A stretch of DNA of 51,418 nt from positions 1-51,418 of the forward strand of contig DRNU01000014.1 of the NCBI GenBank assembly GCA_011374975.1, read 5' to 3'. This document shows, piece by piece, positions 18,061 to 38,315 of the stretch (within the stretch, counting starts at the first letter, position 1; each line of letters starts with the position of its first letter). The stretch comes from Gammaproteobacteria bacterium. GTDB lineage: Bacteria > Pseudomonadota > Gammaproteobacteria > DSM-19610. The position numbers and the translations under genes are program-made. The notes below the pieces were generated by a model that saw only the letters and a program-made list of their open reading frames with translations, was not told where the DNA came from and searched no databases.

Positions 18061-18074
18061 TTGACATATATCAA
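18061..18074 (+). promoter_or_regulatory. FNR/CRP-family binding site upstream of the tetraheme cytochrome
   Basis: TTGACATATATCAA matches the FNR-type dyad TTGAY-N4-RTCAA at all defined positions (classical TTGAT-N4-ATCAA). It lies about 170 bp before the tetraheme ATG, so a long 5' leader or an extra promoter is implied. No convincing -10 box could be placed with class II spacing. The rest of the gap to 18243 is AT-rich and shows no gene. Confidence 0.7.
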
Positions 18075-18243: not shown

Positions 18244-18924
18244 ATGAAATACATCAACCAGAAACTGCTCCGCGCGCCCGGTGCTCTGCTCGCCGCACTG
18301 GGGTTAATCAGCGGTCAGGCCTTTGCAGGGACCATCGTGGGCACCGCCCATGACTTCTCCGCAAGCGGCTTCTCAGGCGGCGAAATCTGCGTAGTCTGTC
18401 ATACACCGCACCATGCAGACACCACTGTTACAGAAGCACCGCTGTGGAACCATGAGCTGACCACGCAAACCTTTGCCATGTACACCAGCCCGACGCTGGA
18501 CGCGGCCCAGGATGCCCAGCCGACCGGCGCATCCAAACTCTGCCTGTCCTGCCATGACGGCGCCACCGCCATCGACGCCTTCGGCGGTAACGTGGGTACG
18601 ATCTTCATGGGCGGCCCGGCAGCTGTGGGCGCCAATGACGACCTGACCGACGATCACCCGATCTCGATCACCTATGACGCCGCACTGGCAACTGTCGACC
18701 AGGGCCTGCATGATCCGACCGCGACCACGGTAACCATCGGCGACGGTGGTGATAAAACCCGTACCGGCCTGGTCTCCGACCTGATGCTGCCGTCTGACAA
18801 GGTTCAGTGCTCCTCATGCCACGATGTGCACAACAACTTTGTTGTACCCGGCACCAACGGCGACCCCTTCCTGAAGGTCACCAAAGCGGGTAGTGCAATC
18901 TGCCTGACTTGCCACAACAAGTAG
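18244..18924 (+). CDS. OmcE-like tetraheme c-type cytochrome, candidate extracellular nanowire subunit
   Basis: The 226-aa precursor has a Sec signal peptide cut after QAFA (residue 28). The mature protein starts GTIVGTAHDFS and carries four heme motifs: CVVCH (Cys49), CLSCH (Cys100), CSSCH (Cys189), CLTCH (Cys220). At least seven further His (36, 56, 57, 70, 138, 156, 196) can serve as distal ligands. Size, heme number and the AHDFS, CHTPH, APLWN, PTGASxLCLSCHDG and DDHPI landmarks resemble the OmcE-type family that polymerises into cytochrome filaments. Polymerisation here is inference. A strong CGGAGGT ribosome site fixes the start at 18244, and a large hairpin follows the stop. It is the first gene of the conduit block. 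Confidence 0.85.
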   Translation: MKYINQKLLRAPGALLAALGLISGQAFAGTIVGTAHDFSASGFSGGEICVVCHTPHHADTTVTEAPLWNHELTTQTFAMYTSPTLDAAQDAQPTGASKLCLSCHDGATAIDAFGGNVGTIFMGGPAAVGANDDLTDDHPISITYDAALATVDQGLHDPTATTVTIGDGGDKTRTGLVSDLMLPSDKVQCSSCHDVHNNFVVPGTNGDPFLKVTKAGSAICLTCHNK

Positions 18925-18933
18925 GTCTGTCAC

Positions 18934-18971
18934 ATTCCCCGCCCCACCGCCTGGTCGGTGGAGCGGGGAAT
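18934..18971 (+). terminator. Strong hairpin after the tetraheme gene (attenuator or mRNA-stability element)
   Basis: A 9-bp perfect outer stem (ATTCCCCGC/GCGGGGAAT), one C-A mismatch and a 6-bp inner stem (CCACCG/CGGTGG) close a 6-nt loop. No U-tract follows, so it is not a classical intrinsic terminator. Placed 10 bp after the first gene of the cluster, it would suit partial termination or 3' protection, giving more tetraheme mRNA than downstream mRNA. Confidence 0.7.
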
Positions 18972-19006
18972 CCACATAAAGCAACAATAAAAAGCGCCGG
19001 ATATTT

Positions 19007-20158
19007 ATGCACATGTGTCTGAGTCGCAAAATCACCCCAACCCGTATTCACCGAACCCTCGTCATTCTTGCCCTGGCACTGCTCACTGGCTGTGCCGGCA
19101 CACCCAGGCCGGATGATACCGGGGCGCTGTTTTTTCCACCGCCACCCGACCTGCCCCGTCTCCAGTACCTGACCCGTTTTTCCACACCCAGCGATGTGGA
19201 AACCGAGAGCATGGGGCTCAGGGATTTCATTGTCGGTGAGGACTCACTGGGCGACCACCTGGTACGCAAGCCCTTTGGCGTGGCGATGTATGACGGAAAA
19301 ATCTACGTCGCAGATACCCGCGGCCACGGCTATGGCATCTTCGACCTGAAAAACAAACGCACCGACCTGGTGCAGGGCTCCGCCGGCGGGGCGATGAAAA
19401 AGCCCATCAATATCACCATTGACACCGACGGCACCAAGTACGTGACCGACACCGACCGTAACCAGGTCCTGGTATTCGATGTCAACGACCGCTTCGTGCG
19501 CGCCATTGGTACCCCTGACCAGTTCAAACCGATTGATGTGCTGATCGTGGACGACAAGCTGTACGTGTCGGACCTGTACCATCACCAGATCCAGGTACTG
19601 GACAAGGCCGGCGGGGAAACCCTGTTCACTTTCGGCAAGGCCGGCTCCGGCGATGGCGAGCTGTTCCAGCCGACCAGCCTGGCGCTGGGCCCCGACCACT
19701 CACTGTACATCAGTGATACCGGCAACTTCCGCATCCAGAAATACTCTCTGGACGGAAAATTTATACGCGGCTATGGCAGCGTCGGCGACGCGGTAGGACA
19801 CTTCGCACGTCCCAAGGGCATTGCGGTAGACCGTGAAGGCCGGATATATATTATCGACGCCGCTTTCGAGAATGTGCAGATCCTCAAGAATGACGGCACG
19901 CCGCTGATGTTTTTCGGCAAGCCGGGGGACAAGCGCGGTGACATCAATTTGCCGACCGAGATTGTTATCGATTATGACAACCTCGAGTATTTCCAGCACT
20001 ACGCGGCACCCGGCTTTAATCTGGAATACGTCGTCCTGATCGCCAGCCAGTTCGGCATCAACAAGGTTGTCGCATTCGGCTTTGGCAAGATGGAAGGCCT
20101 GAACTATGACGCAGCTCCCCAACCTGCCGCCGACACGGAAGACGAAAACAAGCAATAA
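19007..20158 (+). CDS. NHL-repeat beta-propeller lipoprotein 1
   Basis: The 383-aa protein has a lipoprotein signal (LALALLTGC, Cys about residue 29) followed by a 6-bladed propeller. Its NHL repeats show the usual VADTRGHGYGIFDL, YVSDLYHHQIQVLD and YISDTGNFRIQKYSLDGKFI patterns. NHL propellers bind proteins or polymers. In metal-reducing bacteria such genes are often found with multiheme cytochrome and porin genes, so a structural role in the conduit or filament base is likely but unproven. An ATG two codons downstream is an alternative start. It follows the tetraheme gene after a hairpin. Confidence 0.85.
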   Translation: MHMCLSRKITPTRIHRTLVILALALLTGCAGTPRPDDTGALFFPPPPDLPRLQYLTRFSTPSDVETESMGLRDFIVGEDSLGDHLVRKPFGVAMYDGKIYVADTRGHGYGIFDLKNKRTDLVQGSAGGAMKKPINITIDTDGTKYVTDTDRNQVLVFDVNDRFVRAIGTPDQFKPIDVLIVDDKLYVSDLYHHQIQVLDKAGGETLFTFGKAGSGDGELFQPTSLALGPDHSLYISDTGNFRIQKYSLDGKFIRGYGSVGDAVGHFARPKGIAVDREGRIYIIDAAFENVQILKNDGTPLMFFGKPGDKRGDINLPTEIVIDYDNLEYFQHYAAPGFNLEYVVLIASQFGINKVVAFGFGKMEGLNYDAAPQPAADTEDENKQ

Positions 20159-20265
20159 GGCGTTACTGCGCGAGGCTGACATGACTGATTCCGGAACCTG
20201 TTCATATTCGCAGCAGAAGCGGGGCTGTAAAACGGTCCGCGCCGCCGTAAAGAGAGCAACAGAGA

Positions 20266-22317
20266 ATGTGTGTTGTGCGTTCAACTACAAGGGGAATGAC
20301 AAACGCTCTTCGGCGTACCCGGGCCGCGCTCAATTGCGGGCTGCTGGGACTGCTGCTTGCATCACCCTCGCTTAGCGGCGCACAAACTGCTGATATCACC
20401 CCCTTCAAGCTGACCGGTGTCGAAGGCGACCTGGCGACCCGCTATAACCTCGACAACTACCAGCAGAAGTCGGAGGGCGGGGACAATACCTACCAGACCC
20501 GTCCCACGTTCGAGGAGGAAATCTCGATCCTGACGCACAGCTATGCCTACCACCCGAGCCTTCTCAACATGGACCTGGGTGGCGGCCTGCTGTTCCTGCA
20601 ACAGGATTTCGACTCCGACCAGGGCAAGAACAGCAATACCGAGTCGCTGTACAACCTGACCGCACACCTTAATTTCCTGGAACAGAAACCCTACCCGTTC
20701 AAAATGTTCTATGACCGCAGCAACCCGTCGGTCACCACCAGCCTGGCCGGACGTTTCCTGGTGAAAAATACCCGCTACGGCATGAATGCCGCCCTGCTGG
20801 AACCGTTTTCACCGGTGTCGATCAACCTGGAAGCGTTCCGCTTCGAAAGCAACGGTTCCGGCTTCGGCACCAGCATCGACCAGACCACCGACCAGGCCGC
20901 CATCCGCACCTCCAAATCCTATGGCGGCGGCAATAACATCAAGGTGTCCTACCTCTGGACCGAATCCGATTCACAGAGCGGCAGTACCGGGCTGCCGATC
21001 CAGCAAACGGTGACGACCACCAAAACCACGGATGCCAGCGCACTGAATGTTTTCGGCGCCAACAAGCAGATACGGCTGACCCAGCTGCTGACCATTACCA
21101 ACCAGAACCTGGACATACAGCAGACCCCCTCGACCGAACTTGACGATCTGCGCTACAGCTATGACATGCGCTGGACGCATACCCCCAGAACGCGGTCTTT
21201 CTACCAGTACCGCCTGCAAAAAAGTGACCGTACCGAGGTCAACACCACCAACCGCAATGTCAGGGTCGGCGCTTCCTACGAACAGGAAGAGGGCTGGAAA
21301 GGCAACTTCGATGTACATGCCGAGAAAGAGGACCAGGACACCACGGATTTTGAGCGCAAGGTGTACGGTACACTGGGCGTGGCGGGTTACACCCGCAAGA
21401 TTCGCAATGGCTCCATGGACCTGGGCGTAGCCGTGCGCGTTGACCAGACAGACCAGTCTACCGGGAGCACCGACATCATCCAGGTGATCGATGAACCGGT
21501 GACCCTGAACGGTACCACGCCGGTACCCTTGCAAAACCCGTTCGTCATAACCCCTGTTGACGTAGTCACCCTTAACCAGCAGCCACTCACTGAAGGCGTG
21601 GACTATGCCCTGCGGGTCATCGGTTCCATCACCGAGATTTCGTGGCTGCCCGGCAGCCCCAATATCAATCCCACGGATACGGTACTGGTCACCTACAACT
21701 ACCGGTCGGGTGGCGATGTGAAGTTCAACACCTACAGCCAGAACTATTCCAGCAACTTCAAGCTGTTCAGGTTCCATGACCTGTTCGCCCGCTACCGCAG
21801 GCGGGACCAGTCGGTAAAAACCGGCAACCCCACTACCCCGCTCAATGACATTGAAAACATCCTGGTCGGGGCACGTGTCGAATACCCGCTGCTGAGCGGC
21901 TGGCTGGTGGGAGCCGAGGCGAACTACGAAGACCAGAAGGAAGATATATCGCCGTTCACCCGCAAACTGGTCAAGGCCCATTTTGAAGCCCCGCTGCCAC
22001 GCGCTTCACGCCTGCGGGTAATGGGCCGACGGGAATTCGTGGACAATGAAAATTCACCGGAAGACATCGACGTCAGCCAGATCATCGTGCGCTTGTCTTC
22101 GCGCCCCTGGCTGCGTACCGTTGTCACGGCCGATGGTGACTATGAAAAAGACACCGGCGGCACGCAGGACCGGCGCCGCCGCGCTCTGGCCGTGGGCCTG
22201 CTGTGGCGCTACCGCAAGCTGCAATTTACGGTCCGCGCCGAACATATCAATAACAAACAGGGGCAGGTAACCCAGGAAAACAATAAAGTACGGGCTCAAC
22301 TGATACGGCGGTTCTGA
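20266..22317 (+). CDS. Outer-membrane beta-barrel, candidate porin of a cytochrome conduit
   Basis: The 683-aa protein has a signal peptide (cut near SLSGAQT), many amphipathic beta-strands alternating with polar loops across its length, and a C-terminal Phe (...AQLIRRF) typical of BAM-inserted proteins. No TonB box or plug domain is evident. Porin-cytochrome conduits pair such barrels with multiheme cytochromes, and this gene sits between two NHL lipoprotein genes and just before two multiheme genes. The ATG at 20296 after AAGGGG is an alternative start and would give a shorter, cleaner signal peptide. Its stop overlaps the next ATG. Confidence 0.83.
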   Translation: MCVVRSTTRGMTNALRRTRAALNCGLLGLLLASPSLSGAQTADITPFKLTGVEGDLATRYNLDNYQQKSEGGDNTYQTRPTFEEEISILTHSYAYHPSLLNMDLGGGLLFLQQDFDSDQGKNSNTESLYNLTAHLNFLEQKPYPFKMFYDRSNPSVTTSLAGRFLVKNTRYGMNAALLEPFSPVSINLEAFRFESNGSGFGTSIDQTTDQAAIRTSKSYGGGNNIKVSYLWTESDSQSGSTGLPIQQTVTTTKTTDASALNVFGANKQIRLTQLLTITNQNLDIQQTPSTELDDLRYSYDMRWTHTPRTRSFYQYRLQKSDRTEVNTTNRNVRVGASYEQEEGWKGNFDVHAEKEDQDTTDFERKVYGTLGVAGYTRKIRNGSMDLGVAVRVDQTDQSTGSTDIIQVIDEPVTLNGTTPVPLQNPFVITPVDVVTLNQQPLTEGVDYALRVIGSITEISWLPGSPNINPTDTVLVTYNYRSGGDVKFNTYSQNYSSNFKLFRFHDLFARYRRRDQSVKTGNPTTPLNDIENILVGARVEYPLLSGWLVGAEANYEDQKEDISPFTRKLVKAHFEAPLPRASRLRVMGRREFVDNENSPEDIDVSQIIVRLSSRPWLRTVVTADGDYEKDTGGTQDRRRRALAVGLLWRYRKLQFTVRAEHINNKQGQVTQENNKVRAQLIRRF

Positions 22318-23363
22318 TGACGATAAAGCGCATATTCCGGTTTGCCTTACTGGCCCTGATCAGCACAGGCGTCCTGCTGGGCGGCTGTACGCCGGCACGC
22401 AACGCAACGCCCGAACAACAGGTCGAGCGGGTCTGGCCCGAACCCCCCGAGCAGCCGCGCATCCGCTTTGAAAAGAGCATCTCCAGCGCCGAGGACCTGG
22501 GCATTGAAAAATCCTTCTGGAAACGGCTGGGTGAATTCATCACCGGCGCCTCCAGTACACGCCTGGTACGCCCCATGGCGGTCGTCATGGATACCCGCAA
22601 TGAAATCATGTACGTAGCCGACCCCGGGGCACGCGGTGTACACCGCTTCAACCTGCACGATTCAAGCTACAAACTCCTGTACCGCGAGAAAAATCTGCCG
22701 CTAACCTCTCCAGTAGGCATGGCACTCGGACCGGACAACCAGGTATTCATCGCAGATTCGGGACTTGGCCAACTGTTTGTGGCGACACCCGATGCGGACT
22801 TCCTGTCCCCTGTCAAACTGGAACCGGGACCGCAACAGCCCACCGGCGTGCTTTTCGAACAGGCAACGGGTTATCTGTATATCGTGGACACAACAGAACA
22901 CGCAATCAAAGTATATTCAGGCGCGGGCAGCCTGGTCCGGCAATTCGGCCGGCGCGGCCACGGTCCGGGGGAGTTCAATTTTCCGACGGCGCTGTGGCAG
23001 GACCGGCAGGGTCATTTGCTGGTCACCGACTCGCTTAATTTCCGCATCCAGAAGCTCGATACCGGGGGGCGGTTTATCAGCCGGTTCGGCCAGCTTGGCG
23101 ATGCCAGTGGCGACATGTCGCGCCCCAAGGGGGTCGCCACCGACAGTTCCGGTCATGTCTATGTAGTCGACTCGATGTTCCATGCTTTCCAGATTTTCGA
23201 CGACACGGGTGAACTGTTGCTGATCCTGGGTTCACAAGGTCATGGCGCCGGAGAATTCTGGCTGCCCACCGGCATTTTTATCGCGCCGGACGACCGCATT
23301 TACATTTCCGACTCGCACAACCGGCGCGTTCAGATTTTCCGCTATATCGGGGGTAAACCATGA
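22317..23363 (+). CDS. NHL-repeat beta-propeller lipoprotein 2
   Basis: The 348-aa protein has a lipobox LLGGC (Cys about residue 24) and a propeller of NHL repeats, for example VADPGARGVHRFNL, FIADSGLGQLFV and YISDSHNRRVQIFRY. It is a diverged relative of the first NHL lipoprotein. The ATG overlaps the porin stop (TGATG) and its own stop overlaps the start of the 12-heme cytochrome. This tight coupling suggests the three proteins act in fixed ratio, probably at the outer membrane. Confidence 0.85.
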   Translation: MTIKRIFRFALLALISTGVLLGGCTPARNATPEQQVERVWPEPPEQPRIRFEKSISSAEDLGIEKSFWKRLGEFITGASSTRLVRPMAVVMDTRNEIMYVADPGARGVHRFNLHDSSYKLLYREKNLPLTSPVGMALGPDNQVFIADSGLGQLFVATPDADFLSPVKLEPGPQQPTGVLFEQATGYLYIVDTTEHAIKVYSGAGSLVRQFGRRGHGPGEFNFPTALWQDRQGHLLVTDSLNFRIQKLDTGGRFISRFGQLGDASGDMSRPKGVATDSSGHVYVVDSMFHAFQIFDDTGELLLILGSQGHGAGEFWLPTGIFIAPDDRIYISDSHNRRVQIFRYIGGKP

Positions 23364-25096
23364 AGTTGTTGACATGGGCAGGACTGGCGGCAGCGCTGTT
23401 GATGACGTGCAATACCGCGTGGGCGGCGATTGCAGACACCAAACATAACCTGTCGACCTCCGGGCCGGGCACCATCAAGGCTGTCAGCGAAGACCAGATC
23501 TGTATCTTCTGCCATACACCGCACAATTCCTCGGCATCCGCACCGTTATGGAACCGGCGCGACCCGGGCAGTACCTATATCCCCTACTCCAGCAGTACCG
23601 CGATTGCCAACCCGGGGCAACCCACCGGCGCATCGATCCTGTGCCTGAGCTGCCACGACGGGACTATCGCCCTGGGTGAGATACTGAGCAGCCCGACGGA
23701 TATCGTCATGGCCGGCGGGGTGACCACCATGCCGCCGGGCGACGCGCTGCTGGGCACAGACCTGTCCGATGACCACCCGGTTTCCTTCGACTATACGACC
23801 AGCATCACCAGCGGCGGTGAATACGTAGACCCCTCATCGCTGACCGGCACCGTCCGCCTGGACGCCAACGGCCAGATGCAATGCACCAGTTGCCACGAGC
23901 CGCACGACAATACCTGGGGCAAGTTCCTGGTGAAATCGGCGCGCGCCTCGGGCCTGTGCATGACCTGCCATCTCAAGACCGGCTGGGAGCAATCCCCGCA
24001 TAACCTGTCCGGCGCCACCTGGAACGGCCAGGGCACCGATCCCTGGCCGGCCACCGACTGGAATAACGTCGCCGATAACGGCTGCCAGAACTGCCACCGG
24101 CCACATTCGGCAGGGAGCCGCGAGCGCCTGCTGAATTACGCTATCGAGGAGAATAACTGCTCGGCCTGCCATAACGGAAATGTGGCCGGCAAGGACATCA
24201 TTTCTGTCTTCAACCAGTTCTCCAAACACCCGATCAGCGACACCTTCGAGGTCCACGATCCTGCCGAACCCAATGTCGTCGCCAACCGCCATGTGGAATG
24301 TCAGGACTGCCACAACCCGCATGCGGCACGCGCCGGCTCCGGTGGCGTCACGGGGCCGTTGCTCGGGGTACGCGGCGTGGATATCAACGGCATCGATATC
24401 GACAGCATTCTCGAGACCTACCAACTGTGTTTCCGCTGCCACGGTGACAGCACCGGCAAGCCCACGGCGCCCACACCGCGTCAGATCGAGCAGACCAACA
24501 CGCGCCTGGAGTTCACCCTGTCCAACCCGTCTTACCACCCGGTCGCGGGACCCGGGCGCAACCCCGACGTCCCCAGCCTGATCTCGCCACTGACCCCGGC
24601 CAGCGTCATCAGCTGCACCGACTGCCATAACAGCAACGACTCGCCCACGGCCGGCGGCATCGGCCCCGAGGGCCCGCACGGCTCGACTTTCGAGCCGATC
24701 CTGGCACGGCAGTACATAACCATCGACAATACCCCGGAGAGCGCCTCCAACTATGCCCTGTGCTACAACTGCCACGATCGTAACAGCATCCTGGGCAACG
24801 AGAGCTTCAGCCTGCACAACAGGCATATTGTCAGGGAAAGAGCCCCCTGCAATGTCTGCCACGACCCGCACGGCATCAGTGATACCCAGGGCAACAGCAA
24901 CAACAACACCCACCTGATCAACTTTGATACTTCAGTGGTGTCACCCAATATGATGGGCGCATTGAGCTTTACCGATAACGGTCGCTTTGCGGGCAGTTGC
25001 AGCCTGAGATGCCACGGACGAAACCACATGAATTTCTCCTACCCGGGGGGTATGGGAGGCGGTGGTGGTGGCGGTGGCGGCATGGGCGGCGGTTAA
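23360..25096 (+). CDS. Dodecaheme c-type cytochrome with an N-terminal tetraheme (nanowire-like) module
   Basis: The 578-aa precursor has a signal peptide (cut near NTAWAA). It carries eleven CXXCH motifs (Cys48, 95, 175, 200, 242, 267, 314, 357, 419, 468, 497) and one CX3CH motif, CSLRCH, at Cys547. Residues about 25-205 align with the whole mature tetraheme protein, sharing ICxxCHTPH, APLWN, PTGASxLCLSCHDG and DDHPxS. The C-terminus is a Gly/Met tail of about 16 residues. Such a protein could join a filament to the conduit, or be the conduit cytochrome itself. Start and stop overlap both neighbours. Confidence 0.9.
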   Translation: MKLLTWAGLAAALLMTCNTAWAAIADTKHNLSTSGPGTIKAVSEDQICIFCHTPHNSSASAPLWNRRDPGSTYIPYSSSTAIANPGQPTGASILCLSCHDGTIALGEILSSPTDIVMAGGVTTMPPGDALLGTDLSDDHPVSFDYTTSITSGGEYVDPSSLTGTVRLDANGQMQCTSCHEPHDNTWGKFLVKSARASGLCMTCHLKTGWEQSPHNLSGATWNGQGTDPWPATDWNNVADNGCQNCHRPHSAGSRERLLNYAIEENNCSACHNGNVAGKDIISVFNQFSKHPISDTFEVHDPAEPNVVANRHVECQDCHNPHAARAGSGGVTGPLLGVRGVDINGIDIDSILETYQLCFRCHGDSTGKPTAPTPRQIEQTNTRLEFTLSNPSYHPVAGPGRNPDVPSLISPLTPASVISCTDCHNSNDSPTAGGIGPEGPHGSTFEPILARQYITIDNTPESASNYALCYNCHDRNSILGNESFSLHNRHIVRERAPCNVCHDPHGISDTQGNSNNNTHLINFDTSVVSPNMMGALSFTDNGRFAGSCSLRCHGRNHMNFSYPGGMGGGGGGGGGMGGG

Positions 25097-26103
25097 TGGC
25101 ATTTTCCGGCACAACCAGGATTTGCGCCATACTCTGCCTGCTGCTGACCACAACAGTTGCAGTCAGCCAGGAAAAGACCGCTGTACCGACGATCGATGCC
25201 AAAGACGTGCTGGCACAGCCCGACAACATCCCGCAGTGGCTGAACGAAGGGCGCCTGCAACCGGAACAGATCCCCAGCCCCCACTGGCGCGACGATGCCT
25301 GCCGGAGCTGCCATACCTCCAGCAGGCCGTCACGACGCAAACTCGCGTTACGGCATAAAAACCCGGACCTGCTGTGCAAAAACTGCCACGATCCCGCAAC
25401 TCAGCACGCCTACATTCATCCCGCAGACATCACACCCGACCCCGCCATGCGCAAACGCATGCCCGCTGACTACCGGCAAGCCATGAAAAAAGGCAAGATC
25501 GTCTGTACCACCTGTCACGACCTCCCCGCACAGTGTCTGGTCAAACGCCGCCAGGAACAACGCAACAACCCGGCTTTCCTGCGCGGGGCGCCGTTCGCAC
25601 ACCGTTCGGAACCCTGCTACCTGTGCCACGATGCCAAAGCCTATGCACGCATCAACCCGCACGACCAGATCACCGATGGCGGCCAGATCCGCGAAGCCAC
25701 CTGCGTCCTGTGCCACGACGACGTCAAACAGCTGCAGGCCGATGCCGCCATTGAAAACGTGGGGTTCAACATCAAACAGGACCTGGCGAAAATGTGCACC
25801 GGCTGCCACCCGTGGATCCCCCACCCCGGCGGAAAATTCATGTTCTCCAGCACCTTCAAGGACAGAAAACACCCCGAGCACCTGACAGTACCGCCCGAAC
25901 CGATGCGCAAATACATGCAGCACATGGCGGTGAAAAACGACATCATCCTGCCGCTCGACCCCACCACCGGCAAAGTCTACTGCGCCACCTGCCACAACCC
26001 GCACGAACGCGGCCTGTTGAAAAACAGCGCCGCCGCCAAAGGCGCCGACGCCGACAAACGCCTGCGCATGAAGGATATCTGCACCAACTGCCACGACAAG
26101 TAA
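25096..26103 (+). CDS. Octaheme c-type cytochrome
   Basis: The 335-aa precursor starts at an ATG overlapping the previous stop (TAATG). The frame is open further upstream, but that stretch is the antisense-like reading of the Gly tail. A signal peptide ends near TVAVSQ. Eight motifs are seen: CRSCH, CKNCH, CTTCH, CYLCH, CVLCH, CTGCH, CATCH, CTNCH. It should be a periplasmic or surface electron carrier and is the last gene of the nanowire/conduit block. No known enzyme octaheme family (for example nitrite or hydroxylamine enzymes with CX2CK) is recognised. Confidence 0.9.
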   Translation: MAFSGTTRICAILCLLLTTTVAVSQEKTAVPTIDAKDVLAQPDNIPQWLNEGRLQPEQIPSPHWRDDACRSCHTSSRPSRRKLALRHKNPDLLCKNCHDPATQHAYIHPADITPDPAMRKRMPADYRQAMKKGKIVCTTCHDLPAQCLVKRRQEQRNNPAFLRGAPFAHRSEPCYLCHDAKAYARINPHDQITDGGQIREATCVLCHDDVKQLQADAAIENVGFNIKQDLAKMCTGCHPWIPHPGGKFMFSSTFKDRKHPEHLTVPPEPMRKYMQHMAVKNDIILPLDPTTGKVYCATCHNPHERGLLKNSAAAKGADADKRLRMKDICTNCHDK

Positions 26104-26315: not shown

Positions 26316-27050
26316 CTACTGAGACATACACTCTTCGAAAATAGCGTACTTGTCACCCCTGGGATCAATCGGCAAATGCGCCGCAGGCACCGCGTAAACC
26401 TGGGAAACAATATCAGGAATCATCTCATCTACCTCCGGCTGCCCGGAACGGGGCAACGACTCCCGCGCCTGAATCTCACTGCGCCCGCGAATACGTTCCT
26501 GCATCGCGGCGACAAACAGATTCGCCGTGTAGTAACAACCCAGCTCCCGCTCACGATGCCGCTCGATCAGCCAGGCCGGGTCCAGGCGCCCGACCCGGTC
26601 AGCAATCAGCAGATCGTTGAATGCCGCGGTAAAACCGGTCAGGGAAAACTTCAGTGTATTCTTTCCTGTAGCCCGCTCGCCAAACCAGACGCGCAGGTCC
26701 AGCCCGGCGATCATGCGCGTGATAAAGGTTTTCTTTTCTTCATCACTCAGCTCGATCCTGAACAGGCGGCTGTCGGGCTTCCGCTCCAGCAGGGCCAGCA
26801 CCGCTTCGGTGGCCGGGCCATGATCGACGGCCAGCGACACCCGTAACGGCAGCGGCGGCGCCTGCCTGTCGACCTGCACCACCATGAGAAAACTGGTTTC
26901 CTCAGACTGATTATGGGTAACAATAAACTGGTGACCTTCCGGGGTAACAGTCGTTATCCAGTGACCGTCTTCGGTTTGCCTGAGCGTCCAGTCCGCATGG
27001 GTTGCGGCAGACAGTAACAACAGCGTGATCGCTATCCAAATCCTGTACAT
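26316..27050 (-). CDS. Secreted hypothetical protein
   Basis: The 244-aa product has a signal peptide (LLLLSAATHA) and a soluble mature part of about 225 residues. An N-terminal beta-rich half contains WTLRQTEDGHWITTVTPEG in pattern, and the C-terminal half is helical. It has no heme motif and only two Cys. I do not recognise the family. It lies 87 bp downstream of the triheme gene of the minus-strand module and could be its last gene; the gap contains a short GCCCGG/CCGGGC hairpin. Confidence 0.7.
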   Translation of the reverse strand: MYRIWIAITLLLLSAATHADWTLRQTEDGHWITTVTPEGHQFIVTHNQSEETSFLMVVQVDRQAPPLPLRVSLAVDHGPATEAVLALLERKPDSRLFRIELSDEEKKTFITRMIAGLDLRVWFGERATGKNTLKFSLTGFTAAFNDLLIADRVGRLDPAWLIERHRERELGCYYTANLFVAAMQERIRGRSEIQARESLPRSGQPEVDEMIPDIVSQVYAVPAAHLPIDPRGDKYAIFEECMSQ

Positions 27051-27137: not shown

Positions 27138-28067
27138 TCATTCCTCTGCCTGCTGCTCCTGCTCTTCTTTGTCCTCGTCATCATCCTCGATACCCGGGGT
27201 CAGGAAGCTTGGAATATAAAACTCCTTGTACTTCTGTATCATACCCACCACAGAAGAGTTCGTCAGTTCGTCGGTACGGCGTGGCGGATAACCCAGTCTT
27301 GCGAAAGGCAGGAACTGGCCTTCTTCATTGTGGCAACGCTTGCATGCAACCGGTTCCTTGCTCACGCCACGGTGTATTACGCGTTTCATCTGCGACTTCT
27401 GTTCCTGGTCGAGCCGTTCCTGTTCACTGATATAACGCTCGACGAAGGCCATATCCTTCTTGCCGTGCAGCCAGCGGAACTTGCCGTTCTCTTCGATACC
27501 GGGTGCGATCTTGGCACCGTAGTTGCCGTAGGTCGGGTAACTGCGCACCGCACTGCGATAACTGTCCTCGATATCGTGCAGTACGCGCGGGTTTGGGACA
27601 AGCTTGCCGGTGTCCTTGTCATACCAGCGGTACTCGTAACCCGGCTCGCCTTTCTCCGCCGGCATGTGGCAGGTTTCGCAGGCAAGATAGAACGCATGCA
27701 TGTTCATGAAACTGCGCAGTTCCTTGGATTTATTGTGCGGCACATTCCCGTGGCAACGCACGCAGATACTGGCCTGGTCCTTCTGCACGCTGAAGCCGAT
27801 GTGATGGAAGCGGCCCTCGATATAGGGCTGCTCGATGACCTTGAAGCCAAGATCGGTCCGGCTGGTTCGGGACTGTTCCTCGATCAGGCGGTCGAACATC
27901 TCCTCGTCCGCGCTTTTGCTGTGGCTCAGTTCGCGCAGTGATTCGGCCGCCTCCTCCTTGCCCTCGAAACCGAAAATCAGCGGGTACATGAACATTCCGT
28001 ACCAGACGGTGAACCCCATCAGGAACAACACATAGAGCTTGAATACCAGGCGCTTTAGAAACTTCAC
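27138..28067 (-). CDS. Membrane-anchored triheme cytochrome c (module A)
   Basis: The 309-aa protein has an uncleaved N-terminal membrane helix (about residues 8-33), then a periplasmic domain with CVRCH, CETCH and CKRCH, and an acidic C-terminal tail (EDDDEDKEEQEQQAEE). It is paralogous to the triheme protein at 33099-34184: both share RCHGxxPHxKxxxxRxxxNMH, a Cys-rich ETCH/MTCH site, and LPFxxLGxxxRRxxxxTNxxxVGxxxKYxEFYxP. The start overlaps the cytochrome b stop (ATGA type). It likely passes electrons between the b/octaheme pair and periplasmic cytochromes. Confidence 0.88.
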   Translation of the reverse strand: MKFLKRLVFKLYVLFLMGFTVWYGMFMYPLIFGFEGKEEAAESLRELSHSKSADEEMFDRLIEEQSRTSRTDLGFKVIEQPYIEGRFHHIGFSVQKDQASICVRCHGNVPHNKSKELRSFMNMHAFYLACETCHMPAEKGEPGYEYRWYDKDTGKLVPNPRVLHDIEDSYRSAVRSYPTYGNYGAKIAPGIEENGKFRWLHGKKDMAFVERYISEQERLDQEQKSQMKRVIHRGVSKEPVACKRCHNEEGQFLPFARLGYPPRRTDELTNSSVVGMIQKYKEFYIPSFLTPGIEDDDEDKEEQEQQAEE

Positions 28068-28879
28068 CAGTTGTACTCCTGGCCACCGAAGTGCTGCGGT
28101 CTGATCTCTTCCTCAAGGCCCTGCTCGATCATGACTTTCACGTAATCCGCATAATGCTCGTGAATCATCTCGTCTTCGGTAAGATAACCGGTCAGCCAGA
28201 CCGTGGCGGCGGGGAATTTTTCCGGCGCGTAGTGCACGTTGTACCAGTGCACGAAGAACAGGAACAGCACCGCCAGCAACGCCTCGTCCGTATGCATGAT
28301 GTAGGCGGCATTGAGCACGATGCCCGGAACGTAATGTGTAATTTCGTCACGCCACCATAACAGGACACCGGCCGGCCCGAGGATGGGAATACCCCAGTAA
28401 GGTGCGAAATAATCGAACTTCTCACGCCACGACATCTTTTCATGCCGCGGTGGCCGGTTGGTAAAATACAGCAGGTACTTCCACGCATGCACCACATCGT
28501 GGAAATCCTTCATGTTGGGGACCATCTCCTGGGAAAAGAATGCCCGGGTACCCGTCCTCAGGTTCAGCTTCCCCTGCGCTTTCAGCTTGCCGAGATCGTC
28601 ACGGATGAACAGCACGATCCAGTAAATCGTGTGGTAGACAAACAGGCCCAGCAATACCGTCCCGGCGGCGCGGTGTATCAACGGCGCCAGGTCCGGCCCG
28701 CCCATGAAATCGTACAGCGGCCTGGCCCAGGGCTCCTCGGCATGGCGCAGCGGGAAACCGGTGATTGCGAGCAGCAGAACCGAGCTGAACAGGATCACAT
28801 GCTGCACCCGCTGGTGTACCGAGAAACGGAAGAAATACCGTTTGCCGTCCTTCTCAACAATGGGATCATACCTTGGCAT
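28064..28879 (-). CDS. Cytochrome b subunit, quinone-reactive type (module A)
   Basis: The 271-aa integral membrane protein has four to five predicted helices and the conserved His of a b-type diheme protein: HQRVQH in the first helix, LIHRAAG and VYHTIYW in the middle, and VHWYNVH near the end. The pattern EALLAVLFLFFVHWYNVHYAP is shared with the module B homologue. It resembles the cytochrome b561/Ni-Fe hydrogenase b-subunit fold and should exchange electrons with the quinone pool. An AGGAG ribosome site precedes the ATG, and its stop overlaps the triheme start. Confidence 0.88.
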   Translation of the reverse strand: MPRYDPIVEKDGKRYFFRFSVHQRVQHVILFSSVLLLAITGFPLRHAEEPWARPLYDFMGGPDLAPLIHRAAGTVLLGLFVYHTIYWIVLFIRDDLGKLKAQGKLNLRTGTRAFFSQEMVPNMKDFHDVVHAWKYLLYFTNRPPRHEKMSWREKFDYFAPYWGIPILGPAGVLLWWRDEITHYVPGIVLNAAYIMHTDEALLAVLFLFFVHWYNVHYAPEKFPAATVWLTGYLTEDEMIHEHYADYVKVMIEQGLEEEIRPQHFGGQEYNW

Positions 28880-28893
28880 AATCAGCTCCTAAA

Positions 28894-29976
28894 TCAGGAC
28901 TTCTTTTGCTGCGGACTGCTGTCCACGCTCTTCTCTTTGATGAACGTGAAATTCGGGAACAGCCTGCGCAGCAACTCGAGGAAGATCAGTGTCAGGAAGA
29001 AATACAGGACCAGGGCCATCAGCGCCTTGAAACCCATCAGCATGTAAAACTGCAGGGGATATTTCTTCCGGTCATAGGTCACGTGCGTCTGGAAACCGGC
29101 AAGGTTGGCGCCCGCCTTGGTATGACAGTCCTCGGTCCGGCAGGTGGTCGGTACATTGTCTTTATAGACAGCCGAACTCGGCACCGTCTGTGACTCGATC
29201 AGATGTGTGTTTTCACCGGCAACGACGTGGCAGTCGAGGCAGTCCGGCGTCTTCTCCGAGCCCAGCGCAATCAGTTTCCCGTGGAAGGTCTGTTTGTAGG
29301 TGGTAACAACATCATCCAGCTCGTGCCTTTCCCTGAAGTCCGGGTCCTGGTGGCACTTGGCGCAGACCTCGATGGTTTCCAGCGGGAAGCGCGTCTTGCG
29401 CAGCCGGGAAGTAACGTGTTCGTAGAAGTCCTCGGCAAAGTCACCGCTGGTATGACAGGCCTTGCAGCGGGTAACCGCCCGCTCGCTGACGCCGGATTTG
29501 ACCTTGCCCTTGTATACGGAGATCGGCCGGTAAAACGGCTGGTCGTGGCAATCCTTGCATTCAGGGAAATCATCCTGGTAAGGCTTGGGCTTGCCGTCCG
29601 CGTCGAGCTTGCCATGCGCACTGCGGGCCAGCGTGTCTGCGATCGGTTTATGGGTGAATTTTTTCTGGCCCGACGGCTCCACGATATGGCATTGCTGGGC
29701 ACAGTCCACTTTTTTGGCGGGCTTGTGGGGAATGCGGTCGATATCAGTATGGCAATCCTTGCACTTGTTGCGGCGGTGCGGCCCGCTGTCGAACAGTTCC
29801 TGGTTGATGTAGAAAAGTCTGAATTCGCCGTTTTCGTCTATCCTGCTCAGCCCACGGTGTTTATGGCACATGACGCAATTGAGTTCATCGCCCGCCGGGA
29901 CCTGATCCGAAAACGCGATCAGTGAAACAATGACCGCCAGCAAAGCAAAGCTCTTGTACGAGTAGCATGCATTCAT
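28894..29976 (-). CDS. Membrane-anchored octaheme cytochrome c (module A)
   Basis: The 360-aa protein has an N-terminal signal (cut near DQVPAG) and a C-terminal anchor (about residues 318-340). Hemes: CVMCH, CKDCH, CAQQCH (CX3CH), CKDCH, CKACH, CAKCH, CLDCH and CRTEDCH (CX4CH), that is six standard and two expanded motifs. The module B homologue (30870-31994) has the CX3CH at the same place but CX2CH at heme 8. It is the first gene of the module A operon, 14 bp before the cytochrome b gene, and would collect or deliver electrons at the periplasmic face. Confidence 0.9.
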   Translation of the reverse strand: MNACYSYKSFALLAVIVSLIAFSDQVPAGDELNCVMCHKHRGLSRIDENGEFRLFYINQELFDSGPHRRNKCKDCHTDIDRIPHKPAKKVDCAQQCHIVEPSGQKKFTHKPIADTLARSAHGKLDADGKPKPYQDDFPECKDCHDQPFYRPISVYKGKVKSGVSERAVTRCKACHTSGDFAEDFYEHVTSRLRKTRFPLETIEVCAKCHQDPDFRERHELDDVVTTYKQTFHGKLIALGSEKTPDCLDCHVVAGENTHLIESQTVPSSAVYKDNVPTTCRTEDCHTKAGANLAGFQTHVTYDRKKYPLQFYMLMGFKALMALVLYFFLTLIFLELLRRLFPNFTFIKEKSVDSSPQQKKS

Positions 29977-30119: not shown

Positions 30120-30133
30120 TTGACACACATCAA
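30120..30133 (-). promoter_or_regulatory. FNR/CRP-family binding site upstream of module A
   Basis: TTGACACACATCAA (plus strand) fits TTGAY-N4-RTCAA. Read toward module A, a -10-like GATAAAAA (30100-30091 region) lies about 30 bp downstream of the box centre. That is the spacing of a class II FNR promoter, giving a start near 30085 and a leader of about 110 nt to the octaheme ATG. The leader contains a GCCGGC-loop-GCCGGC hairpin near the ribosome site. Confidence 0.72.
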
Positions 30134-30801: not shown

Positions 30802-30869
30802 TATTGGCTATGGACTTGCGCATTCCGCTGTCTTATCGTCGGTCTCCAATAAGGGCAATATACGAACCC

Positions 30870-31994
30870 ATGGTCCCCGATATAATAACTGCTCGACAAG
30901 CAAGGTGGCTGCTGATTGCCGTCTGCGGGCTGTTGTGGTCCGCCAGCGCCCTGGCGTTCGAGGACGACGAAGGTTGCCTGCTGTGCCACAAGTACCCGAA
31001 AATGGGCCGGGTCACTGAAGAAGGCGCCCGGCGGTCCTATTACGTCATACCGCACGTGTTCGGCTCCACCGTGCACCGCAACGTACCCTGCACGGACTGC
31101 CACAGCTACATCGAGCAACTCCCGCACCGCGAAGTCAAAACCGGTGTGACCTGCGATTCCGAATGCCACTCCATAAAGAACCCCGCTACCGGCAAGAATT
31201 TCAGTCACAGGCCCATCGCAAAGGAATACATGCGCAGCACGCATGGCAGGAAGAAACAGGCCGAGGGGCTGGACGCCGACAAACCCTATTGCGTCACCTG
31301 CCACCGCAACCCCGTTTACAATCCCAACGAAGAGGGCCCGCCCAAGCGGATCGTCGACCGTTGCGTTATCTGCCATGAAGACAAGAAATTTGTCACCAAC
31401 TGGTACAAGCACACCAGCCGGCGCATCCGCGAGGTCAAACGTTCTTCGGAAGAAATCGTGGCGCTGTGCTCATCCTGCCACGGCAACGAGCGCATGATAG
31501 AACGCCACCTGGAGGCGGCGAAGGAAGAAGGGCGTGAACTGGGCCGCAAATTCAGTATTGCGGCAGAGTCCTACAAGAAGAGCTTCCACGGCAAGGTCAC
31601 GCGCTACGGGTTCCAGAACACCCCCAACTGCCTCAGCTGCCATGCCAAGCAGGACAACTATTACCTCAGCGTCCACTTTATACGCCCGTCACGGGACCCG
31701 GAATCACCGGTCAGCACCGAGAACAAGGTCAAGACCTGCCAGCGCTGCCACACCTACGCCGACAAGAATTATGCGGCACTCGATCCGCACCCGACTGATA
31801 CCCGCGAAGATAATCCGTTTATCTACTATGCCGAAATCGGGTACAACTGGATGGCTTACATCGTGATCGCCATGCTGGTCGGACTGGCGCTGGTGGAAAC
31901 CATCGGCCGCCGCCGCGACGGTGTCGGATGGCGCCTCCACCACGGTTCGACCTGGTGGCGTCACTCACGGCGCGGACGCGACCGTGTGTCGTGA
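30870..31994 (+). CDS. Membrane-anchored octaheme cytochrome c (module B)
   Basis: With the ATG at 30870 the protein has 374 residues, a signal peptide ending SASALA and a C-terminal anchor (WMAYIVIAMLVGLALVE) with a basic cytoplasmic tail. Hemes: CLLCH, CTDCH, CDSECH (CX3CH), CVTCH, CVICH, CSSCH, CLSCH, CQRCH. It is the paralogue of the module A octaheme protein, with the same order and the same expanded third motif. An ATG at 30810 is in frame but sits too close to the FNR box. It opens a six-gene operon that runs to 38207. Confidence 0.9.
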   Translation: MVPDIITARQARWLLIAVCGLLWSASALAFEDDEGCLLCHKYPKMGRVTEEGARRSYYVIPHVFGSTVHRNVPCTDCHSYIEQLPHREVKTGVTCDSECHSIKNPATGKNFSHRPIAKEYMRSTHGRKKQAEGLDADKPYCVTCHRNPVYNPNEEGPPKRIVDRCVICHEDKKFVTNWYKHTSRRIREVKRSSEEIVALCSSCHGNERMIERHLEAAKEEGRELGRKFSIAAESYKKSFHGKVTRYGFQNTPNCLSCHAKQDNYYLSVHFIRPSRDPESPVSTENKVKTCQRCHTYADKNYAALDPHPTDTREDNPFIYYAEIGYNWMAYIVIAMLVGLALVETIGRRRDGVGWRLHHGSTWWRHSRRGRDRVS

Positions 31995-32021: not shown

Positions 32022-32981
32022 ATGAAACTTTCAGCCGAAGCCCGGGATGTACTCGAAACATCGATGCGCATCAACAAGGTCGACGACAGGCAGCGCACTG
32101 AAATCGAGAACGTCGTCGCTGCAATGCCGGACGACCGGGTACTGCTGTACAAGAATGTCGTCTCCAACCCGATCGGTGACCTGCCGCGCTACTCGATTCA
32201 CATTCGCATCCAGCACATGCTGACCTTTGTGACCTTCCTGACACTGGCCTTCACCGGCCTGCCGATCGCTTTCTTCGACCATTTCTGGGCAACGCCCCTG
32301 AATACACTGGTCGGCGGCGTGGATGTGTCCCGCATCATCCACCGCACACTCGCCAGCGTCATGATCCTGAGCATGCTGTACCACATGGTCACCATCACAC
32401 TGGGGCCGATCCAGCAGGCCATGCAGGGGCGCTTCGAACTGCGCCGCACCATTATCCCCACGTTCAAGGATATCCGGGATTTCAAGCAGGACATGCTGTA
32501 TTTCGCGGGCCGTCACATGCAGCGGCCGGAAATGGACAAGTTCATGTACAAGCAGAAAATCCACTATTTTGCCGCCGCCTTCGGCAACATCGTGATGATC
32601 GTTTCCGGCTCCTCTTTCCTGTTCCCGGAGTTCTGGGCCGCCGTGCTGCCGGTCAGTATTGTGCCGCACTTCCAGGAGATGATGCGCCTGTCACACCCGC
32701 ACGAGGCACTGCTGGCGCTGCTGGTGATCGCGTTCTGGCACTGGTACAACGTGCACCTTGCACCGGGCCGTTTCCCGATGCAGTGGACCTTCCTGACCGG
32801 CAAGATCACCCGCGAACACCAGATCGAAGAACATTTCCTGGAATACCTGCGCAACCTGGTCGAACTGCCCGAAGAGCGCGCCTATCTTCTCGACCTGCTG
32901 GCGGCCCGCGAACTGGATGAAAATGCGAAGGGCATGCCGGAAAGCCCCGCTGTTGCCGTAACCGAGGGCTCCGTCCCATGA
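32022..32981 (+). CDS. Cytochrome b subunit, quinone-reactive type (module B)
   Basis: The 319-aa membrane protein is the homologue of the module A cytochrome b. His-bearing segments HIRIQH, IIHRTLAS, LYHMVTI and FWHWYNVHLAP align with those of module A. It has an extra N-terminal stretch of about 45 residues (DRVLLYKNVVSNP) and an extended C-terminus. It should carry b hemes across the inner membrane and react with quinone. The stop overlaps the ATG of the 38-aa microprotein (ATGA). Confidence 0.88.
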   Translation: MKLSAEARDVLETSMRINKVDDRQRTEIENVVAAMPDDRVLLYKNVVSNPIGDLPRYSIHIRIQHMLTFVTFLTLAFTGLPIAFFDHFWATPLNTLVGGVDVSRIIHRTLASVMILSMLYHMVTITLGPIQQAMQGRFELRRTIIPTFKDIRDFKQDMLYFAGRHMQRPEMDKFMYKQKIHYFAAAFGNIVMIVSGSSFLFPEFWAAVLPVSIVPHFQEMMRLSHPHEALLALLVIAFWHWYNVHLAPGRFPMQWTFLTGKITREHQIEEHFLEYLRNLVELPEERAYLLDLLAARELDENAKGMPESPAVAVTEGSVP

Positions 32982-38207: not shown

Positions 38208-38315
38208 CGGGACGCTGGATGGCCCACAACCTGCGTGTTTTTAACAGATTATTCAGAATTTCAGCGCCAGAGGACTAAAGACTTCCGCTACAGACACCGA
38301 TAACATGATGAGTTT

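Follow-up and report, generated by a model that had tools for sequence, protein, structure and literature searches.

The locus described here raises the question of whether a single gene cluster in a gammaproteobacterium can encode both a conduit for electrons through the outer membrane and a cytochrome filament joined to it. The window, that is, the whole stretch of DNA analysed, comprises 51,418 nucleotides of contig DRNU01000014.1 (assembly GCA_011374975.1, lineage DSM-19610). Its core consists of six genes, where names in Uet refer to the undecaheme electron transfer cluster discussed below:

18244..18924, + strand: OmcE-like tetraheme c-type cytochrome (UetA-like), candidate filament subunit; 226 aa, four CXXCH motifs, signal peptide recognized by eye
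19007..20158, + strand: NHL beta-propeller lipoprotein 1 (UetH/I-like); PF01436, E 4e-22; lipobox LTGC by eye
20266..22317, + strand: outer-membrane beta-barrel (UetC-like), from AF2 model and PDB fold search; likelier start at 20296
22317..23363, + strand: NHL beta-propeller lipoprotein 2; PF01436, E 1.6e-23; lipobox LGGC by eye
23360..25096, + strand: dodecaheme cytochrome (UetJ-like); 11 CX2CH and one CX3CH motifs; OmcE-like domain at residues 8-206
25096..26103, + strand: octaheme c-type cytochrome, marker of the variant in the window; eight CX2CH motifs

An earlier note, made from the sequence of the window, had described six genes in one direction, with two NHL lipoproteins, a 12-heme and an 8-heme cytochrome, and overlapping stops and starts in the last four genes. 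All of these features were recovered, the overlaps being of 1 bp (barrel and second NHL gene), 4 bp (second NHL and dodecaheme genes) and 1 bp (dodecaheme and octaheme genes). A sequence search with the octaheme protein found no PDB relatives at E 0.01.

The tetraheme cytochrome is a true relative of OmcE, the filament protein of Geobacter sulfurreducens (7TFS). Homology extends over the full length (E 2.3e-20, phmmer against PDB sequences) with about 35% identity, and the profile comparison with OmcE called for in the earlier note gave E 8e-31. Its length falls in the range of about 200-230 aa that, with four CXXCH hemes and secretion, marks the OmcE family. At least one CXXCH motif appeared in only 235 of 20,000 composition shuffles of the protein. 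In a fold search with its heme-free AF2 model (pLDDT 83.9), the sole match at E ≤0.001 was OmcE itself, with modest TM scores of 0.53 (query) and 0.59 (target); the note had made its proposal depend on such a match. The eight axial heme-ligand His residues, enough for four bis-His hemes, are all retained at OmcE positions, the four distal ones being assigned by conservation rather than from coordinates. Sequence, fold and heme ligands thus agree with the OmcE-like character claimed for this protein. Among its supposed landmark motifs, APLWN and DDHP have OmcE equivalents (IPLWN and NDHP), while PTGAS lacks an OmcE counterpart.

The full set of distal residues (His36, His56, His138 and His196) is present in 65 of 68 tetrahemes and in 10 of 10 reference proteins, namely OmcE, 9YUQ and eight Geobacter-class genes. 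The 9YUQ entry (‘putative multiheme cytochrome c’, 16 chains), known here from its PDB listing and sequence, is also a tetraheme with the same ligand His residues (E 8e-21). Both OmcE and 9YUQ differ from the window protein in having Arg in place of an additional conserved residue, His70, which is present in 60 of 68 tetrahemes. OmcE also differs in lacking the linkage of the window tetraheme to a barrel and a dodecaheme cytochrome.

A second OmcE-like domain was identified within the dodecaheme cytochrome, whose first 200 residues or so match OmcE with E 1.4e-34, better by E-value than the tetraheme does, and are followed by eight further hemes. The same four distal His residues are kept in 80 of 83 such N-terminal domains. 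In a phylogenetic tree these domains form a separate clade (83 of 83, support 0.976), and the tetraheme lies with OmcE across the split. Exactly 11 CX2CH motifs occur in 78 of the 83 dodecahemes, and 65 of them have a signal-peptide-like start as judged by rough patterns. No description in print was found of this OmcE-like N-domain.

It is considered reasonably probable that the tetraheme forms filaments. An OmcE-like fold is by itself not proof of a filament, because the dodecaheme also holds such a domain, and kinship with OmcE does not by itself establish polymerization, because the dodecaheme domain is the nearer of the two to OmcE by E-value. The same conduit might operate with no filament, with monomers of the tetraheme, secreted or bound to the cell surface, passing electrons back and forth between the dodecaheme and minerals. 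This rather unlikely alternative is favoured by the occurrence of the domain within the dodecaheme, where a simple homopolymer is impossible, by the identity to OmcE of about 35%, and by the published accounts of Uet members, which in the parts available contain no filament evidence. Against it, each of the four distal His residues of OmcE shows little or no variation among 62 tetrahemes from many phyla, and the interfacial heme of OmcE is described as ligated by a His of the next subunit (PMC12954529, as far as the available text goes).

A probable transcript punctuation that sets the tetraheme gene apart also argues against a monomeric carrier:

18934..18971, + strand: stable hairpin directly 3' of the tetraheme gene, probable transcript punctuation; z -2.9, equal stability in 1 of 200 shuffles

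The hairpin in the window has no T-run. Comparable hairpins were found 3' of the tetraheme gene at 46 of 63 junctions, with 5/69, 2/56, 11/77 and 5/45 (4-14%) at the other junctions; 17 of the 63 tetraheme junctions had none at z < -2. This enrichment was not found described in print. Such a hairpin would allow an excess of tetraheme to be produced, a requirement for a polymer subunit.

The core is not peculiar to the window, as its first five genes were found again in many phyla. Among 80 named loci, 55 had at least 6.5 kb of upstream sequence, and in these, with genes labelled by a custom ORF caller and HMMs, the dodecaheme was accompanied by an OmcE-like tetraheme in 52 and by the barrel in 54; lipoboxes were detected with rough patterns in 88 of 162 NHL ORFs. 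The accompaniment of tetraheme and dodecaheme across phyla was not found described in print.

The barrel yielded no Pfam or NCBIfam match at E 0.01. Its AF2 model is confident (pLDDT 90.4) and consists mostly of long strands, about 28 of them barrel strands by our own count. In the PDB fold search the first match was MtrB (6r2q_B, E 6e-8), with modest TM scores of 0.42/0.44, an rmsd of 13 and a marginal lead over LptD, TonB-dependent transporters and ushers. Model and first match bear out the outer-membrane barrel proposed for this gene. As in MtrCAB and MtoAB, a large barrel occurs with multiheme cytochromes; the window cluster differs from those systems in its NHL proteins and in a barrel without a Pfam or NCBIfam match; the MtrA/DmsE family (TIGR03508) gave eight weak matches, none above cut-off, in a search of the genome (88.8% complete).

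For OmcS nanowires, machinery made up of a propeller, an isomerase and porin-like components has been reported. In the window, the barrel and NHL propellers could serve mainly to export and assemble a tetraheme filament, with the dodecaheme as an external base piece and no trans-membrane wire. Consistent with this, an NHL gene adjoins the OmcE-like gene in all eight Geobacter-class loci read out, as it does in the window, and in seven of the eight, all but L140, the roughly 18-20 kb read out show no barrel of this family; the presence of ushers and LptD among the fold matches points the same way. Such a machine is nevertheless judged improbable, and more so than the monomeric carrier: the barrel tracks the dodecaheme and not OmcE, the top fold match is MtrB, and small genes for 3-5 hemes lie immediately before the barrel gene in 29 of the 55 loci. 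The closest Geobacter-class genes, unlike that of the window, have glycosyltransferase-like neighbours (by eye). A conduit carrying electrons across the outer membrane is considered likely.

The operon had been thought to end at 26103. Its six genes stood, and the end did not, as the gene island runs on to about 38940:

26316..27050, - strand: secreted-looking 244-aa protein without Pfam family; a similar-looking N-terminus occurs at the same place in two other loci, L012 and L015 (by eye)
27138..28067, - strand: triheme cytochrome with N-terminal hydrophobic stretch, inner-membrane module 1
28064..28879, - strand: cytochrome b561-type protein, module 1; PF01292, E 1.8e-7
28894..29976, - strand: cytochrome with six CX2CH, one CX3CH and one CX4CH motifs and C-terminal hydrophobic stretch, module 1
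30804..31994, + strand: cytochrome with seven CX2CH and one CX3CH motifs and C-terminal hydrophobic stretch, inner-membrane module 2; likelier start about 30870
32022..32981, + strand: cytochrome b561-type protein, module 2; PF01292, E 1.5e-8
33099..34184, + strand: triheme cytochrome with N-terminal hydrophobic stretch, module 2
33994..35100, + strand: NHL beta-propeller protein 3 (ORF); PF01436, E 5e-37; likelier start about 34162
35097..38207, + strand: 24-heme c-type cytochrome by motif count, 1036 aa
38305..38940, + strand: triheme cytochrome, 211 aa, end of the island

The island (to about 38.9 kb) lies within a variable region flanked by two tRNA genes and looks horizontally acquired. 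The whole of it, including the two inner-membrane cytochrome b/c modules, has the same gene order in a genome of another family (G126), where a 24-heme homologue with 56% identity occupies the same position. The genome bin, made up of 249 contigs, has a completeness of 88.8% and a contamination of 4.45%, and the dodecaheme was detected at E 1e-40 in just one of the 16 further genomes of its genus, as would be expected of a foreign contig binned by error. This is, however, highly improbable: SpoT encoded on this contig shows 84, 77 and 76% identity to its counterparts in three of the four same-genus genomes probed (G445 gave only a 38% paralog). The flagellar and mla flanks with both tRNA genes agree in G205 and G439, and G080 agrees on the spoT/mla side.

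By composition, the window cluster is Uet, a system described as uetABCDEFGHIJ from Candidatus Tenderia electrophaga and Tenderiales (Eddie et al., 2022, mSphere, as presented in PMC10734462) and also from Gallionella (PMC10734462). In the accessible part of that account, Uet includes a tetraheme (UetA), a barrel (UetC), NHL proteins (UetH and UetI) and an undecaheme UetJ with 11 or 12 motifs, along with three periplasmic trihemes (UetDEG) and a peptidyl-prolyl isomerase (UetB). The window has counterparts of the tetraheme, the barrel and both NHL proteins, as well as a cytochrome with 11 CXXCH motifs, the likeness being drawn by composition rather than from Tenderia sequences. It is a variant that lacks a UetDEG-like trio, has an octaheme gene after that of the dodecaheme, and is extended by a 24-heme cytochrome and a pair of cytochrome b modules. 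Among island ORFs of at least 110 aa no such trio was found, the trihemes present being the 211-aa protein at 38305 and two with hydrophobic N-termini; no peptidyl-prolyl isomerase family matched in the scanned island ORFs, a set that excludes two of less than 125 aa and includes the Pfam-less 26316-27050. The novelty for Gammaproteobacteria suggested in the earlier note is not supported, given the published cluster of Tenderiales and Gallionella.

The Occ cluster of Candidatus Dechloromonas occultata is reportedly cytochrome-rich, as the window cluster is, contains an undecaheme and serves extracellular electron transfer. Occ is mentioned in PMC13264449 and PMC8258643, as far as their available text goes. 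OetABI and putative filaments were reported in syntrophic sulfate reducers, where the filament candidates named, in the portion available, are OmcX, OmcS-like and Apc2a proteins (PMC10553843); ‘OmcE’ and ‘propeller’ have no occurrences in its main text.

The heme proteins and barrel probably wire respiration to the cell exterior, and a Uet-type outer-membrane conduit coupled to an OmcE-family cytochrome is the probable reading of the cluster. The dodecaheme and barrel would carry electrons across the outer membrane, and the octaheme and 24-heme proteins may span the periplasm as far as the quinone pool and its two cytochrome b modules. The NHL lipoproteins might anchor or chaperone parts of the conduit or filament at the outer membrane. 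Two sites resembling FNR/Anr boxes lie in the promoter regions:

18061..18074, + strand: FNR/Anr-box-like palindrome TTGACATATATCAA, upstream of the tetraheme gene
30120..30133, + strand: second FNR-box-like site TTGACACACATCAA, in the divergent promoter region of both inner-membrane modules

The pattern TTGAYNNNNATCAA, picked after the 18061 site had been seen, has two matches in the window against 0.08 expected, and two matches occurred in 0 of 100 shuffles. A similar site lies at most 350 nt upstream in 8 of 79 tetraheme genes. These predicted sites, not found described in print, suggest low-oxygen control.

Low-oxygen control would suit electron export, that is, dissimilatory reduction of metal oxides or humics, which is compatible with any of the other alternatives and is held to be quite possible. 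Several dodecaheme loci come from groups known as anaerobic, and a probable SoxB, cut short where its contig ends (positions 1-187 of 556, E 9e-76), would provide another electron donor. Net uptake, with Fe(II), minerals or a cathode being oxidized, is deemed slightly likelier, because the genome has two full copies of RuBisCO and two cbb3 oxidases (two ccoN), which fit a microaerobic autotroph with a possible outside donor; confidence in uptake was lowered because of the probable SoxB. Mtr, Pcc, Mto and Pio conduits can run both ways (PMC8258643), and Uet was discovered in cathode-oxidizing Tenderiales (PMC10734462), both as stated in the parts available, the former favouring export and the latter uptake.

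In the coupled reading, the tetraheme would be secreted and polymerize head-to-tail, with the OmcE-like domain of the dodecaheme as first subunit, so that filament and conduit would form one heme chain. Docking of a filament by this domain is a tentative proposal. Somewhat more speculative is the dodecaheme as a built-in nanowire socket, its N-domain standing in for the first subunit and an OmcE-family filament extending directly from a barrel-cytochrome conduit, as a general design in Gammaproteobacteria, Bacteroidota, Planctomycetota, Verrucomicrobiota, Nitrospirota, Desulfobacterota and others. A single cluster combines a filament-family cytochrome with a conduit cytochrome carrying a copy of the same domain, and the two are linked across many phyla. 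The joint between filament and conduit becomes a concrete, testable protein interface, for which the cluster is a genomic marker, and if the socket proposal is true, OmcE-type nanowires would be far commoner than those solved to date.

All six genes that the earlier note had claimed were found at the positions it gave. The gene of the tetraheme cytochrome (P0001, 18244-18924) is separated by 82 bp from that of the first NHL beta-propeller lipoprotein, which ends 107 bp before the first start codon of the barrel gene, or 137 bp before the likelier start at 20296; the genes downstream overlap by 1, 4 and 1 bp in order. Heme motifs number 4 in the tetraheme, 11 CX2CH plus one CX3CH in the dodecaheme (P0005, 23360-25096), and 8 in the octaheme (25096-26103). 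The observation is thereby confirmed, and the cluster is a variant of the published undecaheme electron transfer (Uet) type. The interpretation first put on it stands in part: kinship with OmcE, the nanowire cytochrome of Geobacter, and the outer-membrane barrel hold up, and the supposed newness to Gammaproteobacteria does not, the available text showing Uet as already published from Tenderiales. Uet has been described for Tenderiales, and six Gallionella also carry it (PMC10734462); UetJ is known in the Leptothrix group too (PMC13386937), and the undecaheme Tel_16545 of Ca. Tenderia had earlier been put forward as a route (PMC5371394).

When the tetraheme was compared with all PDB chains (phmmer, E up to 1), two sequences only were returned, 9YUQ (8e-21; known here from its PDB listing) and OmcE (7TFS, 2.3e-20), with an end-to-end alignment in both cases. 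OmcE also scored 8e-31 against a profile built from six close tetraheme homologues. An AF2 model from 62 sequences, the window's and those of named loci, had a mean pLDDT of 83.9 and a pTM of 0.77, and its sole Foldseek match in the PDB at E <=0.001 was 7TFS (E 2.6e-9, probability 1.00, query TM 0.53, target TM 0.59). The tetraheme alignment, A4, holds the window's protein and 61 of the 66 tetrahemes of named loci, omitting the second tetraheme of L049, L056 and L085 and both of L092.

Among 161 aligned sequences, all four distal histidines of OmcE are kept in 65 of 68 tetrahemes, in 80 of 83 dodecaheme N-domains, and in 10 of 10 of a reference group (OmcE, 9YUQ and eight genes of the Geobacter class). 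Here and in the motif, signal, Gly-rich-tail, hairpin-junction and FNR-site counts below, L015 and L053 denote one place that is counted twice. Since tetrahemes were selected for exactly four CXXCH motifs and a BLAST match of >150 aa to OmcE, conservation of CXXCH among them is by construction. The end-to-end alignment, the fold match to 7TFS and the distal histidines uphold the OmcE kinship that had been claimed, and they rule out a likeness due to chance or to CXXCH motifs alone. A signal-peptide-like start was found, by a rough pattern, in 59 of 62 tetrahemes.

His70 of the window's tetraheme sits in a WNH motif; OmcE and 9YUQ have Arg there. It is retained in 60/68 tetrahemes, 7/83 dodecaheme domains and 0/10 of the reference group, and is a possible extra ligand of a metal or heme. 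Two further tetraheme-like sequences were observed: a 101-aa ORF (L150, 10478-10783), 55% identical over 71 aa, lying downstream of the island in genome G126, and another short match in the window's own genome at G000:C231:3472-3573.

The OmcE likeness does not end with the tetraheme. Residues 8-206 of the dodecaheme match OmcE at E 1.4e-34, more strongly than the tetraheme does, and in a domain tree (FastTree, 194 columns, unrooted, with several supports near OmcE as low as 0.47-0.50) all 83 of 83 dodecaheme domains formed one clade with support 0.976, OmcE and the tetrahemes falling on the other side. The match and the tree together indicate that an OmcE-like fold is present twice in the cluster, once free and once heading a larger cytochrome. 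Exactly 11 CX2CH occur in 78/83 dodecahemes and exactly one CX3CH in 80/83; these counts, like those of histidines, use ORFs <760 aa, so that fused or overlong ones (for example L016, L040, L059, L066 and L072) are dropped. Such numbers fit the name 'undecaheme' of UetJ and the 11-12 motifs that the available text gives for Gallionella. The window's dodecaheme ends in a Gly/Met-rich tail (25040-25093), and a Gly-rich tail (>=8 Gly in the last 25 residues) occurs in 9/83 dodecahemes.

At E 0.01 the barrel matched nothing in Pfam or NCBIfam. Its AF2 model (57 sequences; alignment A5, comprising 56 of 68 barrels and the window's) reached pLDDT 90.4 and pTM 0.78; long strands predominate, with about 28 barrel strands by manual count and an inserted beta domain near residues 404-480. 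A fold search of the PDB gave 225 matches at E <=0.001. First in rank was MtrB, from the Mtr complex (6r2q_B; E 6e-8, TM 0.42/0.44, rmsd 13.2), with LptD, TonB-dependent transporters and ushers close behind. The predicted model shows the third gene to encode a large outer-membrane barrel; fold matches alone do not place a cytochrome inside it. Barrel matches were found in 8 of 274 sampled genomes of the class, the window's own included, two of the eight being weak.

Named bacterial and archaeal genomes were scanned with a dodecaheme profile, and the best 80 of at least 564 confirmed relatives were kept as loci. In this similarity-biased sample, with phyla named by depositors' titles, the titles comprise Gammaproteobacteria, Nitrospirota, Nitrospinota, Bacteroidota, Ignavibacteria, Planctomycetota, Verrucomicrobiota, Kiritimatiellota, Hydrogenedentes, Zixibacteria, Calditrichota, KSB1, Acidobacteria, Deltaproteobacteria/Desulfobacterota and Marinimicrobia. 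Of these loci, 55 extend 6.5 kb or more beyond the dodecaheme on its upstream side; 54 of the 55 contain a barrel of the window's family, and 52 have an OmcE-like tetraheme in the stretch fetched; L033 is without both, and L079 and L083 are without the tetraheme. An NHL gene adjoins the tetraheme in 47/55 and directly precedes the dodecaheme in 46/55. Of all 80 loci, short contigs included, 71 have the barrel and 61 the tetraheme; the strict one-strand order tetraheme-NHL-(cytochrome)-barrel-NHL-dodecaheme occurs in 35, and the NHL-dodecaheme pair is placed first in 8.

A 3-5-heme gene lies directly 5' of the barrel in 29/55 loci, and a 6-10-heme gene directly 3' of the dodecaheme in 8/55 (11/80); these 11 carry six gammaproteobacterial titles and those of one Pseudomonadota MAG, one Nitrospirota, two Verrucomicrobiota and one Desulfuromonadales. 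The window has such a gene, as do four of its five strong class-mates (L012, L013, L014 and L016, not L015). Fourteen genomes were probed for the octaheme itself, and 13 gave a match at E 0.001, with E <1e-35 in 12 and a weak match in G279; G284 gave none.

The surroundings of OmcE relatives were also surveyed. An OmcE-like match at E 0.001 occurs in 91 of 146 genomes of a desulfuromonad relative's class, many of the matches being dodecaheme domains, as judged by long open frames. In the eight loci read out from these 91 genomes, an NHL gene adjoins the OmcE-like gene in 8/8, and in 7/8 a barrel of the window's family is absent from the fetched stretch. In the three nearest OmcE (59-64% identity), an 11-motif gene, an octaheme and an NHL gene precede the OmcE-like gene, and glycosyltransferase-like genes, recognized by eye, follow it. 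A complete set, tetraheme-NHL-pentaheme-barrel-NHL-dodecaheme, is present in L140.

In the window, the tetraheme gene is followed immediately by a hairpin, whose best 50 nt reach -28.3 kcal/mol; the whole 85 nt gave -30.3 with a z of -2.9, and 1 of 200 dinucleotide shuffles was equally stable. With 30 dinucleotide shuffles for each junction and four control sets, a test that supersedes an earlier one of 15 mononucleotide shuffles per junction and a single control of 19 junctions, z fell below -2 at 46 of 63 tetraheme/NHL junctions over all loci, a number that includes some doubtful second copies (L027, L091). The controls gave 5/69 before the barrel, 2/56 for barrel/NHL, 11/77 for NHL/dodecaheme and 5/45 after the dodecaheme; many control junctions are overlapping genes and the stretches therefore coding, which makes the first and last sets the fairer ones. 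Stem sequences differ between loci. A run of five T occurs within 110 nt after the tetraheme gene at 26/63 junctions; the window's hairpin has no such run, and so may be an attenuator or a protector of the transcript end rather than a full terminator.

The island runs past 26103, where the earlier note ended it, to 38940. Its minus-strand part holds genes for a 244-aa protein, a triheme, a cytochrome b561 and an 8-heme cytochrome, and the plus-strand part that follows holds 8-heme, cytochrome b561, triheme, NHL, 24-heme and triheme genes. The features of the region are as follows:

11229-39514: variable region, flanked by tRNA-Ala(CGC) and tRNA-Arg(CCT)
11501-12718, plus strand: PAS-GGDEF protein, beside the island
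12720-16151, minus strand: large hybrid sensor kinase with two receiver domains, beside the island
16220-17845, minus strand: B12-binding radical SAM protein, best NCBIfam match the slr0320 family, below cut-off
18061: first TTGAYNNNNATCAA site, upstream of the tetraheme gene
26316-27050, minus strand: secreted-looking 244-aa protein without a Pfam family, placed likewise in L012 and L015 (by eye)
30120: second TTGAYNNNNATCAA site, between two divergent inner-membrane modules
35097-38207, plus strand: 24-heme cytochrome of 1036 aa, with NHL and cytochrome b partners

The radical SAM gene adjoins the island on its upstream side and is transcribed away from it, and the sensor kinase and the PAS-GGDEF protein are possible regulators. 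The motif TTGAYNNNNATCAA, the pattern of an FNR/Anr-type box, was found at two places in the window, where 0.08 would be expected, the pattern having been picked after the first site was seen. Of 79 tetraheme genes, 8 have a comparable site in the 350 nt upstream (expectation about 0.5), and 7 of those 8 belong to gammaproteobacterial loci or class-mates. The gene order of the island is the same in G126, a genome of another family, at 42-84% identity, the 244-aa gene being matched by eye only. At the position of the 24-heme gene, 18-heme ORFs occur in L024, L025 and L057 and a 24-heme ORF in G126.

The tRNA interval of the window spans 28 kb and holds the island with the radical SAM, sensor kinase and GGDEF genes. 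Among 16 other genomes of the genus, the dodecaheme was found at E 1e-40 in one, G442, where it is 45% identical, preceded by a barrel end and an NHL gene and followed by a small triheme gene. The interval measures about 9.4 kb in G205 and 2.0 kb in G439, both of the same genus, with other genes and no CXXCH cytochromes inside; in G080 no cytochrome lies beside tRNA-Arg, tRNA-Ala falling outside the fetched stretch. Because unrelated genes occupy it in two same-genus genomes, the region looks like an insertion hotspot, and these comparisons point to horizontal gain of the island at a variable site. The flanks of the island belong to the genus; a mis-binned contig was considered and rejected, as these flanks match same-genus genomes.

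Uet is reported to be conserved in Tenderiales. That the host is a member of that order with a conserved Uet is unlikely, given that among 20 genomes from the order of the host just 2 have the dodecaheme at E 1e-40, the window's own being one of them. RuBisCO large subunit occurs in three places of the host genome, one partial, and two ccoN lie above cut-off; no match to dsrA and no MtrA/DmsE-family decaheme above cut-off were found in this genome, which is 88.8% complete, so that absences weigh little. For SoxB, nothing exceeded the cut-off, and a strong partial match lies at a contig edge outside the window (G000:C191:1-588), probably a gene truncated there, which would be a hint that the host oxidizes thiosulfate.

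In OmcE and OmcS, an interfacial heme is ligated by a histidine of the neighbouring subunit (PMC12954529); the same source gives the OmcE filament a rise of about 34 angstrom. With the shared domain heading the dodecaheme, the joint between filament subunits would also tie the filament to the cell. Filaments and conduits acting in concert have been proposed for syntrophic sulfate reducers (PMC10553843). The portions of the Uet literature searched contain no tie of Uet to OmcE or to a filament, nor does any paper among those listed by literature searches make one, although the founding papers on Uet, OmcE and archaeal nanowires may state one. The most valuable new element is that a conduit cytochrome has an OmcE-like domain and is closely linked to a free OmcE-like tetraheme.
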